Part shown: piece after piece, positions 2 to 10,477 of the stretch
Numbering within the stretch: position 1 is the first letter of the stretch
Layout of the letters: every line of letters begins with the position of its first letter
Assembly (NCBI GenBank): GCA_905233775.1
Contig: CAJOEB010000026.1
Location: 1-10,477, forward strand
Reading direction: 5' to 3'
DNA length: 10,477 nt
DNA from: an uncultured Alphaproteobacteria bacterium
Lineage (GTDB): Bacteria; Pseudomonadota; Alphaproteobacteria; UBA3830
Made by a program: the position numbers and the translations under genes
The notes under the pieces: model-generated
Database searches by the model: none
What the model saw: only the letters and a program-made list of their open reading frames with translations
Told to the model about the DNA's origin: nothing

Positions 2-2446
2 TTACAACCCCAGTAATGTACAGCCTGGATTTTCTACATACTGCTTAACAATCTTCAAGAATTCAGAGGCAAGTGCCGTATCTGCGACTCTGTGATCGTA
101 TGATAGTGATACGTAAAGCATTGGTCTAACCTCAACGCCATTGTCAGTTGCTATTGGCCGATTATGCATACGATGAACGCTTAATGTCGCAACCTGCGGT
201 GGTGTCAATAAATCCGTACCAATCAATGAGCCATAAACCCCCGCATTAACAACAGTAAATGTTCCTCCCGAAACTTCCTCCACGCTCAAAGTTCCTTCCA
301 CTGCCCTACGCGAAAGATTTATCATGTGCCGCTCAATTTCTTCTACTGTCATAGAATCTGCATGTCTTATAACAGGTGCCATAACCCCATCATTTCCGCA
401 CGTTATAATTGATATATCGTACGTGTTTTTATATATGATTTCGTTTTCGTGTATATGCGCATTAAACACCTTAAATTGTTTTAATGCTTCTATGCTACCC
501 AGTACAAAAAATGGCGTAAATCCCAAACGAATATTATATTTCTTTTGAAAAGCCTCGCCAAAAGTTTTTTCAAGAGTAAGAACGGCACTCATGTCTACTT
601 CATTTGATACTGTAGATATAATAGCAGACTCCTTCCTTTGCTCGTTTTTGCGCTGAGTTAATATATCAATCGGAACAGTTTTATCTTCCGGCGATGCAAA
701 GAAAGTAGGCTTATTCCAGCTTTCCGCATACATGTCCGCTGTATTATCGGATCGTCTATTATTCAGCAAATCACTGACAATTTCCTCTTGTGATTTTATT
801 TCTTCTACTTCTTGTTCAACAATCTTTTTTGCAAGCTTCTCTTCTTGTTTTACCTCTGTTTCTACTTCTTTTATTGTCTTCTGTACTCTCTTATCTGCAT
901 CGTGTTTTAGTTCACGCACAATTCCTTTCAATTCTTCTTTTATTTGTTGCCTAGCTTCAGCTATCATACTGTTGGAAAGTAACTGCATAGAATCGTTTAT
1001 TTTTTCTTTTGTTTCCTCAGAAAATTTATTCAATATATCTTTCGCAGAATTCTTTATTTCATCATTTGCCTCTTCCCGAATACTTTGCATAACTGAATTC
1101 TTACAATTCAAGATTTCGTCATTCATATCCTTTGTAACCTCAACAAGAGTAGCATTCGCAATACTTCTTATTCTCTCAGAAGCTGTACAAAAGATATCGT
1201 TCTTCAGTTTTTCCGCTTCTTTCGCCGCAAGCTCTATGGTGTCATGAAATACTTTTTCAGCTTGAAGACGCGCTGCTTTCTTTGCGTTATTCACAGATTC
1301 AATAACAATACTTTCTGATTTTCTCGTAGCATTCTTACTGGCTGAATGAATTATGTCTTTCTTGATAGCTTTTGCTTCAGTTTTTGCTTCAAAAACAGCA
1401 TTTTCTATGATTTCCTTGCCTTTTTTCTCTGCTTCATCTTTTGCTCTATCAATCGCTTTATTACCTTCATCAATCGCCTGTTGTTTGAGTTGCTTTTCAA
1501 GTTCAATTGCTTCTAACTTTGCGCTATTTTCAGCATTTTTCAAAATTTCTTCTCTCATTGCTTCAGCTTCCAGTTTTGCTTTTTCCCGCGTCTCATTTAA
1601 AAGTTTGGTTTTTGAGTTATCTGCTTCCGCAATAGACCCTTGGATAAGCTTTTGATACATTTCACTGGCATCTTTTGTAGCTTTTTCCTCATACTCTTTC
1701 AAAATTTTTTGTTTTATCTCTTCAGCTTGAGCCATCGCTTGCTTTTTTGCTTCTTCCAGAATGTTATTCTTTATAATTTTCGCTTCTTCTTTCGCTTGTT
1801 CTTCAGCTTTTTTCATAACATCAGCCATTCTTTTTTCCGATTCCTCATAAAAATCATCCAAAATTTCATCTTCTGCTTCTTCCATAGCTAATTCAGCTTC
1901 ATGATCAAGCTGATCCCCTACCCTATCTGCTTCTACTGCGTTCAAAGAATAATCATTCTTAGATTCAGGAACTGAAAGTGAGTATGAATTATCAGATGAA
2001 GATGTGGTATCAACACTAAGGCTCTTGTTTTCGGATGTATCAGTAGATGCATCAGAAGAAGATTTTGACGCTTCTTTAGACGCTTCCGCTGCTTCTTCCG
2101 CATGTTTTTTTTCAACATCAGCTTCTATTTCAGGTGCAATCTCTTCAAGTTCCTGAACTGCGGTTTCTGCTGCACTCTCCTTCTGTATATCGTTAATATC
2201 TGCGTTCATATCTGTTTCAATCACGGCGATTTTAGTTCCCTGACTTATTTCTTCGCCCTCTTTTACGCATATCTGTGCCAATATACAATCGTAGCTGGAT
2301 GTAATTCCGCAAGCTATCTGAGGTGTTTCAGCATCAGCGATAATTTCATTTTTTGAAATTTTATCACCAACCTTCTTATACCACGAAGAAAGCGTTACCT
2401 CATCACTTGAATTGTCAAAATTCGGAACAATTATATCAACACGCAT
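2..2446 (-). CDS. E2-like 2-oxoacid dehydrogenase acyltransferase, non-lipoylatable, with long helical insert
   Basis: An 814-residue protein with three visible parts. Residues 1-77 resemble a lipoyl domain (EIIADAET then VKEGEEISQG), but the position of the lipoylated lysine in the usual ETDK motif is Gln43 (ETPQ), so lipoylation is not expected. Residues about 90-200 are acidic and Ser-rich; about 200-560 are Ala/Glu/Lys-rich helix with a 19-residue period. Residues about 590-814 form the acyltransferase core, SucB-like in NEVDMSAV, TFTVVNAGVYGSL and SYDHRVAD, with catalytic-type His785 and Asp789; the Gly normally after that Asp is Thr790. The N-terminal arginine-rich signature of the core (usually RxxIAxRL) is eroded. 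No E3-binding domain is recognisable. Ordinary E2 proteins are about 400-450 residues. The start at 2446 is preferred over an in-frame ATG at 2485 because AAGGTG lies six bases before it. The fold assignment is secure; the role is unknown and a structural or scaffolding paralogue is likely. Confidence 0.85.
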   Translation of the reverse strand: MRVDIIVPNFDNSSDEVTLSSWYKKVGDKISKNEIIADAETPQIACGITSSYDCILAQICVKEGEEISQGTKIAVIETDMNADINDIQKESAAETAVQELEEIAPEIEADVEKKHAEEAAEASKEASKSSSDASTDTSENKSLSVDTTSSSDNSYSLSVPESKNDYSLNAVEADRVGDQLDHEAELAMEEAEDEILDDFYEESEKRMADVMKKAEEQAKEEAKIIKNNILEEAKKQAMAQAEEIKQKILKEYEEKATKDASEMYQKLIQGSIAEADNSKTKLLNETREKAKLEAEAMREEILKNAENSAKLEAIELEKQLKQQAIDEGNKAIDRAKDEAEKKGKEIIENAVFEAKTEAKAIKKDIIHSASKNATRKSESIVIESVNNAKKAARLQAEKVFHDTIELAAKEAEKLKNDIFCTASERIRSIANATLVEVTKDMNDEILNCKNSVMQSIREEANDEIKNSAKDILNKFSEETKEKINDSMQLLSNSMIAEARQQIKEELKGIVRELKHDADKRVQKTIKEVETEVKQEEKLAKKIVEQEVEEIKSQEEIVSDLLNNRRSDNTADMYAESWNKPTFFASPEDKTVPIDILTQRKNEQRKESAIISTVSNEVDMSAVLTLEKTFGEAFQKKYNIRLGFTPFFVLGSIEALKQFKVFNAHIHENEIIYKNTYDISIITCGNDGVMAPVIRHADSMTVEEIERHMINLSRRAVEGTLSVEEVSGGTFTVVNAGVYGSLIGTDLLTPPQVATLSVHRMHNRPIATDNGVEVRPMLYVSLSYDHRVADTALASEFLKIVKQYVENPGCTLLGL
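1103..1840 (-). repeat. 19-residue helical repeats inside the E2-like protein
   Basis: Residues about 203-448 of the E2-like protein align as degenerate units starting at residues 203, 222, 241, 260, 279, 294, 313, 339, 358, 377, 396, 411 and 430. Nearly all steps are 19 residues, with two of 15 and one of 26. The unit has Ala at position 1, often Glu at 2, a hydrophobic residue at 4, Ile/Leu at 8-9, Ala at 12 and often Ala at 16, for example AEEIKQKILKEY and AKAIKKDIIHSA. Nineteen residues over five turns gives 3.8 per turn, which favours a right-handed helical bundle over a classic heptad coil. The units are not identical at DNA level, so this is old or selected periodicity. Confidence 0.7.
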
Positions 2447-2556: not shown

Positions 2557-3366
2557 TCAAAATATTTTATATTGAGTAATAATAAAGATCCCGAATATTA
2601 TTCGGTAAACAACAAAACATAAGACACTGTGTTTTTTGAAAAATGAATCTACAAATGATAAAGTAATTAACCCAAAAAAGAATGAAAAAATACATCCGAC
2701 AAAAACTAATGTCCAATTTTCTATAATAATATGTCCCGTAAAAATTTTTAATATTCTAAGAAAACATGCACCGGCAACTGGCAATAAAGAGAGTATCATT
2801 GAAAATCTGAAAGCTGTTTGCCTGGAATAATTAGAATATCTCAACATAGAATAGCATGCGCCAAGTCGACTTACTCCTGGTACTATCGAACAAACTTGAG
2901 CAATGCCTGTCAATATAGCATCTTTTCTTGAAACTGTAGTAGTTTGATTAGTAACTTCATTAGCATTTTTACTATCACACCACCACATTATCAATGCGAA
3001 AACTATCATAGAAGAGGCTAAAACGAATGGTGAGTGAAAATCTACATCCAAAAATGCATCCGCTAAACCAAATAAAATAATAGTCGGAATGTTTGCTATT
3101 ATTATAGTTAAAAGAAAATCGCGGTTTTGCGACTTCTTATTACAAACAAAATCAATTCCGCCTTTAATAAGATCAAAAACTTGAGACCAAAAAAAAACTA
3201 CAATAGCAAGTAATGACCCAATATTGAGAAAAATATCAAATGAAAGCCGTTGGTTTGGTAAGTCCTGAAGGCGCGAGAATACAAAAAGATGTGTCGATGA
3301 ACTCACCGGCAACATCTCTGTAATCCCTTGAATTATACCTAAAACTACAGCTTGTAAAAAAGTCAT
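2557..3366 (-). CDS. uppP: Undecaprenyl-diphosphatase (BacA/UppP family)
   Basis: A 269-residue polytopic inner-membrane protein, the usual family length. UppP dephosphorylates undecaprenyl pyrophosphate to regenerate the lipid carrier for peptidoglycan and other surface polymers. Motif 1 is GIIQGITEMLPVSSSTH (residues 10-26), with the expected Glu17, Ser22/Ser23 and His26; Gln13 at the first acidic position is common in the family. Motif 2 is PGVSRLGAC (163-171): the key Arg167 is kept, but the usual RSGAT reads RLGAC, replacing the conserved Ser and Thr with Leu168 and Cys171. A C-terminal YR (254-255) is also typical. The gene starts 32 nt after rpmA and is probably on the same transcript; no strong ribosome-binding site is seen, so translation may depend on upstream genes. 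Family membership is firm; full activity is probable but not certain given the motif-2 changes. Confidence 0.93.
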   Translation of the reverse strand: MTFLQAVVLGIIQGITEMLPVSSSTHLFVFSRLQDLPNQRLSFDIFLNIGSLLAIVVFFWSQVFDLIKGGIDFVCNKKSQNRDFLLTIIIANIPTIILFGLADAFLDVDFHSPFVLASSMIVFALIMWWCDSKNANEVTNQTTTVSRKDAILTGIAQVCSIVPGVSRLGACYSMLRYSNYSRQTAFRFSMILSLLPVAGACFLRILKIFTGHIIIENWTLVFVGCIFSFFFGLITLSFVDSFFKKHSVLCFVVYRIIFGIFIITQYKIF

Positions 3367-8080: not shown

Positions 8081-8875
8081 ATGAATAACTTACATTACGG
8101 AAGCGAAAGATATTATGCAGATGTATTTGAACTTCTCGATAAATCAGGAAAGCATACCTGGAATTGGGCAGCTTTTTTCTTTGGACCATGTTGGATGGCT
8201 TATAGAAAAATGTATTTGTACTCCTTGTTAGGATTACTACTAGCTTATCCTGCCATAGGCATATTCGCGACATTCATTTCTGGTTTATCGTGTCTTCTGT
8301 TTCCTGTGTGTTTTGCAACCGGTGCATTTGCTTTCGGTACAGGAATGTGGATGCTCTTTTGTATGCCACTAATTGTTCATTGTTTATACGGATATTTCGG
8401 AAACGCACTATACTACCGAATTGTAAGACAACGAATATTCGAAGGTTATCACTTAATTGATCAATACAAACCAACCTCAATCACAGCTGGTTTATCTTGC
8501 GGAGTATTTGGTTTTATAATTTGTATATCTGATATTATTATAAGAAATATCCATTTTTCTAAAAAAGAACAACAAGAGAATTCTGATCGTAAGATATCCA
8601 ATCAACATGAAATATCTCAACAAAATATCATTGCTTATCTGAATGAGAACAGACACAAACACTGGGTATCTTGGATTGCCGACATCATTGTTTGTATATG
8701 CCTTTTGTCTCCGACAATAATAGTTCCAACAATTGTTTCCCATTACTCCGAACAAAAGATAAATCGTTTTATGAATTTCGATGATTTTTATGATGATTTT
8801 AATTTTGGAAATGAAGCCTTTGATTTTTATATAAGAAAATTCTCAAGAAATCATCACATCCATTTTAAAGATTAG
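8081..8875 (+). CDS. DUF2628-type multi-pass membrane protein, function unknown
   Basis: A 264-residue protein. The N-terminal part carries the DUF2628 hallmark WNWAAFFFGPCWMAYRKMY (27-45) and a later YGYFGNALYYRIVRQRI (103-119) that matches the family's second conserved block. Hydrophobic segments at about 46-64, 69-100 (likely two), 136-155 and 197-219 suggest about five membrane passes. Between the last two lies a polar, Gln/Asn/His-rich loop (160-195), and after the last comes an unusual Phe/Asp-rich tail (230-252, FMNFDDFYDDFNF and following). The family has no established biochemical role. GGAG at 8067-8070 is ten bases before the ATG and abuts repeat copy C. No partner gene is suggested by the neighbours. 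Confidence 0.8.
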   Translation: MNNLHYGSERYYADVFELLDKSGKHTWNWAAFFFGPCWMAYRKMYLYSLLGLLLAYPAIGIFATFISGLSCLLFPVCFATGAFAFGTGMWMLFCMPLIVHCLYGYFGNALYYRIVRQRIFEGYHLIDQYKPTSITAGLSCGVFGFIICISDIIIRNIHFSKKEQQENSDRKISNQHEISQQNIIAYLNENRHKHWVSWIADIIVCICLLSPTIIVPTIVSHYSEQKINRFMNFDDFYDDFNFGNEAFDFYIRKFSRNHHIHFKD

Positions 8876-8897
8876 TTATAATAAAGCATAAATTCTA

Positions 8898-8926
8898 TTG
8901 AAAATGCATTATATATGGGCTACTAT
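8898..8926 (+). promoter_or_regulatory. Candidate tRNA-Gly promoter
   Basis: TTGAAA (8898-8903) and TACTAT (8921-8926) are exactly 17 bp apart, matching sigma-70 at 5/6 and 4/6. Transcription would start about 20 bases before the mature tRNA 5' end at 8953, a typical arrangement. Confidence 0.55.
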
Positions 8927-8952
8927 CTACTCGTTTTACAAATACTCTTCGT

Positions 8953-9026
8953 GCGGGTGTAGCTCAATGGTAGAGCATAAGCTTCCCAAGCTTGTGACGA
9001 GGGTTCGATTCCCTTCACCCGCTCCA
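8953..9026 (+). tRNA. tRNA-Gly (anticodon CCC)
   Basis: The cloverleaf folds fully: acceptor GCGGGTG/CACCCGC, D stem GCTC/GAGC, anticodon stem TAAGC/GCTTG with loop TTCCCAA, T stem GAGGG/CCCTT with loop TTCGATT, discriminator T and an encoded CCA. The anticodon CCC (8985-8987) reads the glycine codon GGG. The variable loop has four bases. A run of eight T follows directly after CCA and may help end transcription. Confidence 0.97.
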
Positions 9027-9064
9027 TTTTTTTTCGTCATGTATGTATATTTTTTGAGATAAGT

Positions 9065-10477
9065 ATGTTTATTAATAATAAGCTCACAAAGTTAAATATT
9101 CAAAAAACGATTACTCTTCTTATTCTAATTTTGACTATCTTCTTTGGTTATGAAATCGGAAATCGTCCTTTCGCAGATCCGGATGAAGGAAGATATGTTG
9201 AAATACCTCGTGAAATGGTCGTCACCGGAGACTATATAACGCCACGCCTGAATGGATTGAAATATTTCGAAAAACCTCCCCTACTCTATTGGCTCCAAGC
9301 ATCAACAATAAAAGTATTCGGAATGAACGAATATTCAATGCGCTTTTGGATCGCTTTTTTCGCAATTTTAGGATGCTTAAGTGTATTTCTCGTCGGACTA
9401 GCAAGCAAGTCAACTACAATAAACAAATCAACTACAACAGGATTATTTGCAGCCGGAATTTTAGCAACAAATTTACTTTATTACGCACATAGTCGTCTGA
9501 TTATATTGGATCTTGCCGTTTCAGTATTAATCAGTGGTGCTTTATGGTGTTTCTTCTTAGCTTTCGTTAGAAAAGAGAAAATACGATATTCGACATCAAT
9601 AATAATAACAATGTACGTTTTGGCTGCACTTGCATGTCTTACAAAGGGACTTATAGGTGCTATTTTACCGGGATTTGTCGCTTTTCTATGGATTTTCTTT
9701 ACAAATAATTGGAGAAAGATCAAAGAAATGATCTCCATTCCCGGAATATTGGTTTTCTTAGCGATTTTCTTACCGTGGCATATCGCTGTTTGCGCCAAAA
9801 ACTCCGATTTCTTCCATTTCTATTTCGTTGTAGAACACTTTTTAAGATATACAACACAAATGCATGCCAGATATCAACCAGTTTGGTTTTTTATACCTAT
9901 AATTATTGTAGGATTATTACCATGGACAGGATTTTCACTGATTGCACTAAAAGAATCGATAAAACAAAGTTTTCGAAATAAAAACAACTCTGAAAATATT
10001 TTCTTAATTTGCTGGATTTTTGGCATTTTCGGATTTTATTCTTTTTCTAATTCAAAACTAATTCCCTATATTCTGCCGATTGTACCGCCAATATCGTATC
10101 TAACAGCAAAAATGTTGGCAGAAAGCGGAGTATATTTAAACATAATTCTATTGTGTATCGCTCTCATCGCCTTTTATTTTGCAAAAGGAAGTATTTCCGA
10201 CGTGACCAGCACATTTCCAGAAGTAAAAATACTCATAATCGCTTTTTCAGTAGTCATTATTATGTGTATTGCTTTACTACTGTTTTCAATATCCTCTTTT
10301 AAAAATACAAAAAAATCGACAAGTAACACTGTCATTTTATATATCTTTCTCGCAATGAATATGATGTGGATATTAAATAAAGCTGCACCATTCTATCAAG
10401 CAGTAAAAAAGCCATCAGCTAAACAAATGGCTCAAATCGTTCGTTTGAATAGACAACCTGAAGACTTAGTTTTTAGT
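9065..10477 (+). CDS. GT83/ArnT-like membrane glycosyltransferase (3' end beyond window)
   Basis: The frame is open for 471 codons from ATG 9065 to the window edge with no stop, so the gene is incomplete. The protein is polytopic, with a first membrane segment at about 15-31. It then shows the family's periplasmic signature: PFADPDEGRYVEIPREM (35-51, acidic Asp38/Asp40/Glu41), EKPPLLYWL (69-77), SRLIILD (143-149), LTKG (192-195), LPWH (236-239), VEHFLRY (256-262), GLLPW (283-287) and SNSKLIPYILP (328-338). These are typical of ArnT and related PMT-superfamily enzymes, which move a sugar from a polyprenyl-phosphate donor to lipid A or another acceptor outside the inner membrane. Donor and acceptor cannot be told; the arn biosynthesis genes are not in view. 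The ribosome-binding site is weak. The gene starts 38 nt after the tRNA. Confidence 0.88.
   Translation, partial: MFINNKLTKLNIQKTITLLILILTIFFGYEIGNRPFADPDEGRYVEIPREMVVTGDYITPRLNGLKYFEKPPLLYWLQASTIKVFGMNEYSMRFWIAFFAILGCLSVFLVGLASKSTTINKSTTTGLFAAGILATNLLYYAHSRLIILDLAVSVLISGALWCFFLAFVRKEKIRYSTSIIITMYVLAALACLTKGLIGAILPGFVAFLWIFFTNNWRKIKEMISIPGILVFLAIFLPWHIAVCAKNSDFFHFYFVVEHFLRYTTQMHARYQPVWFFIPIIIVGLLPWTGFSLIALKESIKQSFRNKNNSENIFLICWIFGIFGFYSFSNSKLIPYILPIVPPISYLTAKMLAESGVYLNIILLCIALIAFYFAKGSISDVTSTFPEVKILIIAFSVVIIMCIALLLFSISSFKNTKKSTSNTVILYIFLAMNMMWILNKAAPFYQAVKKPSAKQMAQIVRLNRQPEDLVFS

Follow-up and report, generated by a model that had tools for sequence, protein, structure and literature searches.

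What can an E2 enzyme do once the lysine that carries its lipoyl group is gone? The question is raised by the window, the 10,477-nucleotide stretch analyzed here, which is contig C26 (CAJOEB010000026.1) of a 1.21-Mb metagenome-assembled genome (MAG, 83% complete) of an uncultured alphaproteobacterium. A SucB-derived orphan E2-like gene lies at 2..2446 on the minus strand and encodes 814 residues and a stop. Its ATG begins at 2446, an upstream AAGGTG (2453-2458) stops 6 bases short of this ATG, and the gene stops 1 base from the contig end. The identification of the protein as a neofunctionalized E2 is real and well supported. Since the swinging-arm site, the cofactor genes and the usual partners are not found and a long stalk is present, the protein probably does something new.

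Lipoyl-fold domain and position 43

A Pfam scan of the protein gives Biotin_lipoyl (PF00364) at residues 5-76 with 31.2 bits (cut-off 22.1) and 2-oxoacid_dh (PF00198) at residues 606-808 with 175.5 bits (cut-off 23); no other Pfam family is matched at E≤1. Both domains proposed in a preliminary description of the sequence are thus recovered by profile search above cut-off. The lipoyl-fold domain comprises residues 1-80 (2207..2446) and has seven strands in the structure model, where its blocks reach a predicted local distance difference test (pLDDT) of 71-86. The monomer model is weak as a whole (pLDDT 63, predicted template modeling score 0.34); therefore, only its secondary structure is used.

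Alignment to solved SucB sets 'etpq' against the canonical 'etdk' and places Gln43 (codon 2318..2320) at the lipoyl-lysine position. Across 70 distinct proteins of the family this position is Thr in 30, Ser in 17, Gln in 14, Met in 3, Phe in 2, and Glu, Arg, Leu or Tyr in one each. Lys occurs in 0/70, versus 59/59 canonical proteins (P0063-P0121; that protein search listed 120 of 155 matches). Clustering at 95% leaves 55 representatives, none with Lys43, and the lysine is also absent from all four distant relatives that have a lipoyl domain (P0062, P0122, P0125, P0126). The assignment of Gln43 in the preliminary description is therefore upheld, and the Lys-bearing close homologues that could have overturned it do not occur among the 70 family proteins. 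A search with residues 1-90 returns 50 proteins, every one among P0002-P0061.

Several residues are fixed around the free position 43, namely Ala37, Cys46 and Thr49 (each 70/70) and Cys54 (69/70). Cys46 (2309..2311) is a gain that is shared with P0062, P0122, P0125 and P0126; canonical proteins have Val, Ile, Leu or Phe. Cys54 (2285..2287) is gained within the family, the residue being Gly in P0062 and in 58/59 canonical proteins. The Biotin_lipoyl family is matched in 30/30 full-length members at E≤0.1. At the same threshold the E3_binding family (PF02817) is matched in none of them, and it is missing from the precomputed domains of P0002-P0061, in agreement with the earlier observation that the protein has no E3-binding domain.

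Ratios of nonsynonymous to synonymous divergence (dN/dS) were obtained for nine pairs by the Nei-Gojobori method, which is rough where dS exceeds 1, and dS is near saturation in many of the pairs. They range from 0 to 0.07 in the N-terminal domain (8 pairs with finite dS), 0.02 to 0.11 in the catalytic domain and 0.10 to 0.20 in the insert between them (5 pairs with finite dS each). The dN of the N-terminal domain is below that of the catalytic domain in 7/9 pairs. The constraint on the lysine-less domain is similar to that on the catalytic domain, and by these ratios the lipoyl-fold domain, the insert and the catalytic domain are all under purifying selection. With this constraint and the newly fixed residues, the lipoyl-fold domain did not simply decay. 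Locus L047 differs from L051 and L056 by a synonymous divergence of approximately 0.09-0.10 in the catalytic domain and 0.39-0.66 elsewhere in the gene, which would fit an exchange of one part of it.

Catalytic domain, descent and insert

The E2 catalytic domain of SucB type (residues 588-814, 5..685) has E. coli E2o (1scz) as its best fold match. Among NCBIfam models sucB (TIGR01347) ranks first for the whole protein with 287.1 bits, which is under the equivalog cut-off of 378.65, and the relatives with known structures comprise E2 catalytic domains and lipoyl domains, with 9njt as the best. Asp784, His785 (92..94), Arg786 and Asp789 (80..82) align with Asp374, His375, Arg376 and Asp379 of E. 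coli E2o and are kept in 70/70, 69/70, 67/70 and 68/70 family proteins. His785 is replaced by Gln in P0053 and Asp789 is lost in P0060. The conserved C-terminal catalytic domain of the preliminary description is confirmed by these counts. A change that it had not pointed out is Thr790 (77..79), which replaces the Gly of HxxxDG in 70/70 family proteins versus Gly in 59/59 canonical ones. Other invariant changes nearby are Ala735 for Gly (70/70), Asp745 for Pro and Thr644 for Met; Ser614 is also invariant, where canonical proteins have Phe (53/59) or a gap (6/59). The last residues are conserved as well (Leu812 70/70, Leu814 68/70), and the C-terminal end of E2 cores is the site of the trimer-trimer knob (PMC8421416). 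In a study on E. coli E2o (PMC5986005), Ala variants at Asp374, His375 and Asp379 have 2.1%, 2.1% and 9.5% of the activity left. As read from the alignment, the active site is certainly remodeled, and that catalysis is retained is at most a fair guess.

A tree of 39 catalytic domains recovers the family with support of 97/90 and the family plus P0062 as one clade with 100/99. The family falls on the SucB side, separated by a 100/100 split from three pyruvate dehydrogenase (PDH) E2 proteins of the same order. The stem of the family plus P0062 measures 1.48 changes per column and the tree program warns of long branches; therefore, the exact position is unsure. Judged by its sequence, the protein is an orphan E2 of SucB (E2o) descent that stands outside a 2-oxoglutarate dehydrogenase complex. 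P0062 (521 residues) keeps Gln43, Cys46 and HxxxDT, has Gly54, and its linker is shorter and different. P0122, P0125 and P0126 (429-453 residues) are without Lys43 and have Cys46, with Gly at position 54. This pattern suggests that the loss of the lysine and the gain of Cys46 are probably older than the long stalk and Cys54.

A further protein search scored 8000 candidates and listed 120 of its 772 matches. Of 385 evenly sampled alphaproteobacterial genomes 344 have a match, and the lysine is present in each of the best 27 loci outside the family. Among named genome contigs, a scan yields 35 loci, 34 of them from the family; the remaining one, L107, has the motif of a canonical SucB and is acidobacterial. 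No description of this protein was found in the titles and abstract starts of the open-access literature searched. In P0124, a metagenomic protein of 357 residues, ankyrin repeats run straight into a catalytic domain of the same HxxxDT type; it is either a true fusion or an assembly chimera, the longest contig being 3.7 kb.

The two domains are separated by 377-904 residues in the 30 full-length members. In the window the insert begins with a linker (residues 81-197, 1856..2206) that is modeled as a helix at 84-125 and with low confidence thereafter. It continues as a long helical stalk of degenerate 15- and 19-residue repeats (residues 198-561, 764..1855), with model helices at 198-358, 373-516 and 520-561, an apolar period of 3.78 and a self-match at offset 19. 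The best apolar period is 3.755-3.81 in 30/30 inserts with a power of 14.5-51, where the 95% level of shuffled inserts is 5.8-6.8 (ten tested, scan to 3.8), and the mean spectrum peaks at 3.785. Self-comparison of six inserts gives offsets of 19 (window and L053), 15 (L060 and L057) and 72 (L064 and L045), the last being equal to 3 x 19 + 15; the offset in L053 barely exceeds those of shuffles. No second lipoyl domain or binding domain, which the preliminary description had allowed might be hidden here, is found in this helical repeat.

The period is greater than that of a straight helix (approximately 3.6) and the units are of 15 or 19 residues, with local exceptions. Since 15/4 is 3.75 and 19/5 is 3.80, such repeats point to a right-handed supercoil and not to heptads. 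A heptad or 11/3 helix can be rejected, with a mean power of 0.8 at 3.5 and 1.7 at 3.667 versus 22 at 3.778. Local drifts of the period weigh against this reading: L045 and L057 show 3.62 and 3.70 in their second halves, window residues 496-585 show 3.65, and the second half of L060 gives a weak signal. The insert is probably a right-handed coiled coil, and a stalk of three strands would suit E2 trimers.

Genomes, missing partners and gene neighborhood

The E2-like gene is matched in 35/40 genomes of one alphaproteobacterial family (f1, order UBA3830). These genomes are MAGs, 18 of which have a completeness of 90% or more with contamination of 5% or less. The matches in G011, G033 and G036 are contig-edge fragments, which leaves 32 genomes with more than that. 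The open reading frame (ORF) is interrupted in 3/33 loci (L034, L037 and L039) by decay or assembly error. Family loci include L098 (isolate UBA3830) and L106 (RUI108), and the placement of f1 in the order rests on such names. PMC9177762 places RUI108 in the order UBA3830 and finds the Alphaproteobacteria that it covers to be without citric acid cycle enzymes. According to PMC11257099, UBA3830 are uncultured alphaproteobacteria of termites and ruminants that have an ATP/ADP antiporter and putatively live as endosymbionts of flagellates.

The usual partners of an E2 are not found in these genomes. LipA (TIGR00510) is above cut-off in 0/40 family genomes versus 10/14 controls; matches below cut-off in 25/40 (best 36.7 bits versus 310) are taken for other radical-SAM (S-adenosylmethionine) proteins. 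LplA-B_cat (PF21948, covering LplA and LipB) is above cut-off in 0/40 with 3 weak matches, versus 12/14 controls. E1_dh (PF00676) is above cut-off in 0/40 with 2 weak matches, versus 12/14 controls, and this search did not extend to AceE-type E1. Pyr_redox_dim (PF02852) of E3 has no match in the 40 genomes versus 14/14 controls. With the lysine and the binding domain also missing, the preliminary conclusion that the protein is not a swinging-arm E2 stands, and the exclusion of that role is close to certain. The POR_N family of ferredoxin-type pyruvate oxidoreductases (POR) is present in 38/40 family genomes.

The family BPL_LplA_LipB is matched in 37/40 family genomes. A lipoate ligase among these matches was considered and rejected for the six proteins scanned (one from G000 and five from four genomes), which best match biotin ligase models; the birA cut-off is exceeded by 2/6. 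Extra biotin-ligase-like proteins at L151:4890-5753 and 8829-9770, L152:281-835, L156:902-1927 and L157:1106-2101 have signal-peptide-like N termini by eye, and in L151, L156 and L157 one such gene adjoins a thioesterase-like gene, also by eye. The sole other Biotin_lipoyl match in the window genome is a 168-residue frame on contig C116, directly upstream of an accC-like ORF, and is taken for AccB. The E2-like gene is the only 2-oxoacid_dh match in that genome. No second canonical E2 is found in this 83% complete MAG, and the suggestion of a paralogue beside a canonical copy does not hold because the match is single. Elsewhere in the order, a PDH-type E2 that has the lysine lies next to an E1-beta-like ORF (by eye) in three f2 genomes and one f4 genome, and five f3 genomes give no match. 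In the f2 loci L111, L112 and L113 a membrane-bound O-acyltransferase-like gene (by eye) comes after the gene for the PDH-type E2.

The upstream neighbor is uppP/bacA (2557..3366, minus strand, PF02673), with 110 bases between the genes. Among the 34 family genomes that match both genes, uppP immediately precedes the E2-like gene in the same orientation in 21 and is on another contig in 13; therefore, a functional link between the two is only suggested. The adjacency occurs in 4/6 genera and the genes farther out differ. By eye, five g5 loci have the order accB-accC-uppP-E2-like and six g4 loci the order permease-def-fmt-uppP-E2-like. A POR operon is transcribed divergently from the E2-like gene in L046 and L064. 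The window also encodes a protein with DUF2628 (8081-8875, plus strand) and a PMT-type glycosyltransferase-like ORF (9065-10477, plus strand), the latter truncated where the window and the contig both end.

Function and known relatives

The best explanation is an E2-cored stalked oligomer in which the lipoyl fold serves as a docking head and the remodeled center is perhaps active on another acceptor. It is held tentatively, with belief and doubt close to balance. The catalytic domains would still form E2 trimers, perhaps assembled as a 24-mer cube. A right-handed coiled-coil stalk would extend each trimer by roughly 50 nm, if each of its 361 residues adds 0.15 nm, and the stalks of the longest relatives would reach up to some 110 nm. 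The former lipoyl domain at the far end of the stalk would bind a partner and carry no acyl cargo. Less certain is that the center formed by Asp784-His785-Arg786, Asp789 and Thr790 may still use coenzyme A (CoA) thioesters with a diffusible or partner-bound acceptor, and that the acyl-CoA could be supplied by the ferredoxin-dependent 2-oxoacid oxidoreductase. A stalked oligomer as such is likely. The fullest version is a cytoplasmic particle in which a SucB-derived E2 cage bears radiating right-handed coiled-coil arms of 50-110 nm with partner-capturing lipoyl-fold tips and acts as a CoA-dependent acyltransferase with a new acceptor, in gut symbionts without lipoate and the citric acid cycle. 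This combination as a whole is unlikely.

Several observations weigh against an active stalked oligomer. Position 733, which corresponds to Thr323 of E2o, is without a hydroxyl in the family (Val 49 and Ile 21 of 70), where canonical proteins have Ser (42/59) or Thr (17/59); PMC5986005 gives 45% of the activity left in Thr323Ala. The same source reports that His375Trp retains 59% activity, so the conserved His alone is no proof of catalysis. The active-site His is gone in 2/5 distant relatives (Asn in P0122 and Ser in P0123), Asp789 is replaced by Asn in P0122, P0125 and P0126, and P0123 has no lipoyl domain. No match to the gene is seen in five of the 40 family genomes (G005, G012, G018, G026 and G032), three of which are 94-97% complete. 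Oligomer, partner, substrate and catalysis are all inferred.

The same changes favor a purely structural pseudoenzyme, in which the E2 core holds the oligomer together, the stalk and head work as a cytoplasmic scaffold or spacer, and the active-site residues are kept for the fold or trimer contacts. The invariant Thr790 and Ala735, the lack of Ser or Thr at 733, the scattered losses of His (P0122, P0123, P0053) and of Asp789 (P0060), and the long spacer between the domains are all consistent with it. However, Asp784, His785 and Asp789 are nearly always kept in spite of a dS near saturation in many pairs. Such a pseudoenzyme is possible but rather unlikely. A host-facing role, in which these putative gut-flagellate endosymbionts would use the protein extracellularly or with host partners, would fit the endosymbiotic life suggested in PMC11257099 and the presence of ankyrin repeats beside this type of catalytic domain in P0124. 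However, no signal peptide is seen by eye, with no predictor run, and P0124 is a single protein that may be a chimera; this role is improbable.

Cys46 and Cys54 might instead take the place of lipoate on the former lipoyl hairpin, either as a redox pair or as a thiol carrier, and the near invariance of both, together with Cys46 in 4/4 distant relatives with the domain, agrees with this. However, the site of Cys46 is a hydrophobic strand residue in canonical domains and is probably buried, Cys54 is Gly in all four of these relatives, and a cysteine, being much shorter than a lipoyl-lysine, would hardly reach down the E2 channel. A thiol carrier is therefore quite improbable. A functionless, dying remnant of a lost 2-oxoglutarate dehydrogenase could account for the remaining pathway not being found, the interrupted ORFs and the five genomes without a match, but the gene is matched in most of the family, and purifying selection on the lysine-less domain with its new invariant residues largely refutes this very improbable option. 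An error of sequencing or assembly in the codon for position 43, for which a MAG contig and a gene ending next to the contig end could be cited, is refuted by 70 agreeing distinct proteins (55 after 95% clustering) and is negligible.

With the lysine and binding domain lost, the cofactor supply, E1_dh and E3 not found in 40 related genomes and the E2 itself tightly constrained, this is a clean natural case in which the core of the textbook swinging-arm enzyme has apparently been taken over for another job. Such genes should not be named 2-oxoglutarate dehydrogenase E2, as they are in several public records. The coiled coil, very regular and probably right-handed, also makes this soluble protein a target for structural study.

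Compared with known systems, the protein shares with SucB/E2o its catalytic domain (TIGR01347, 9njt, 1scz), its side of the tree and an N-terminal lipoyl fold. It differs in scoring below the equivalog cut-off, in having HxxxDT and no lipoyl lysine or E3-binding domain, in its spacer of 377-904 residues, and in genomes in which no E1_dh or E3 is found. The E3-binding protein (protein X, PDHX) is an E2 derivative with a changed role that retains the lipoyl lysine and binding domain and acts inside the PDH complex; the protein described here has neither, and no complex partners are found. Chloramphenicol acetyltransferase also has the E2 fold and is a lipoate-free trimer whose acceptor is diffusible. 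PMC5986005 compares His195 of this enzyme with His375 of E2o. It may be a working analogue, although the sequence match here is to SucB instead. The family differs from HlyD-type adaptors, in which the lipoyl fold is used without the lysine, in having no further adaptor architecture; it resembles them in weak HlyD_3 matches in 5/30 members (best E 0.02). The stalks of trimeric autotransporters such as YadA are right-handed coiled coils with 15- and 19-residue repeats. The insert differs from them in being joined to an E2 core, and inspection by eye shows neither an export signal nor a membrane anchor; it shares with them a period of 3.75-3.80 and unit lengths of 15 and 19.

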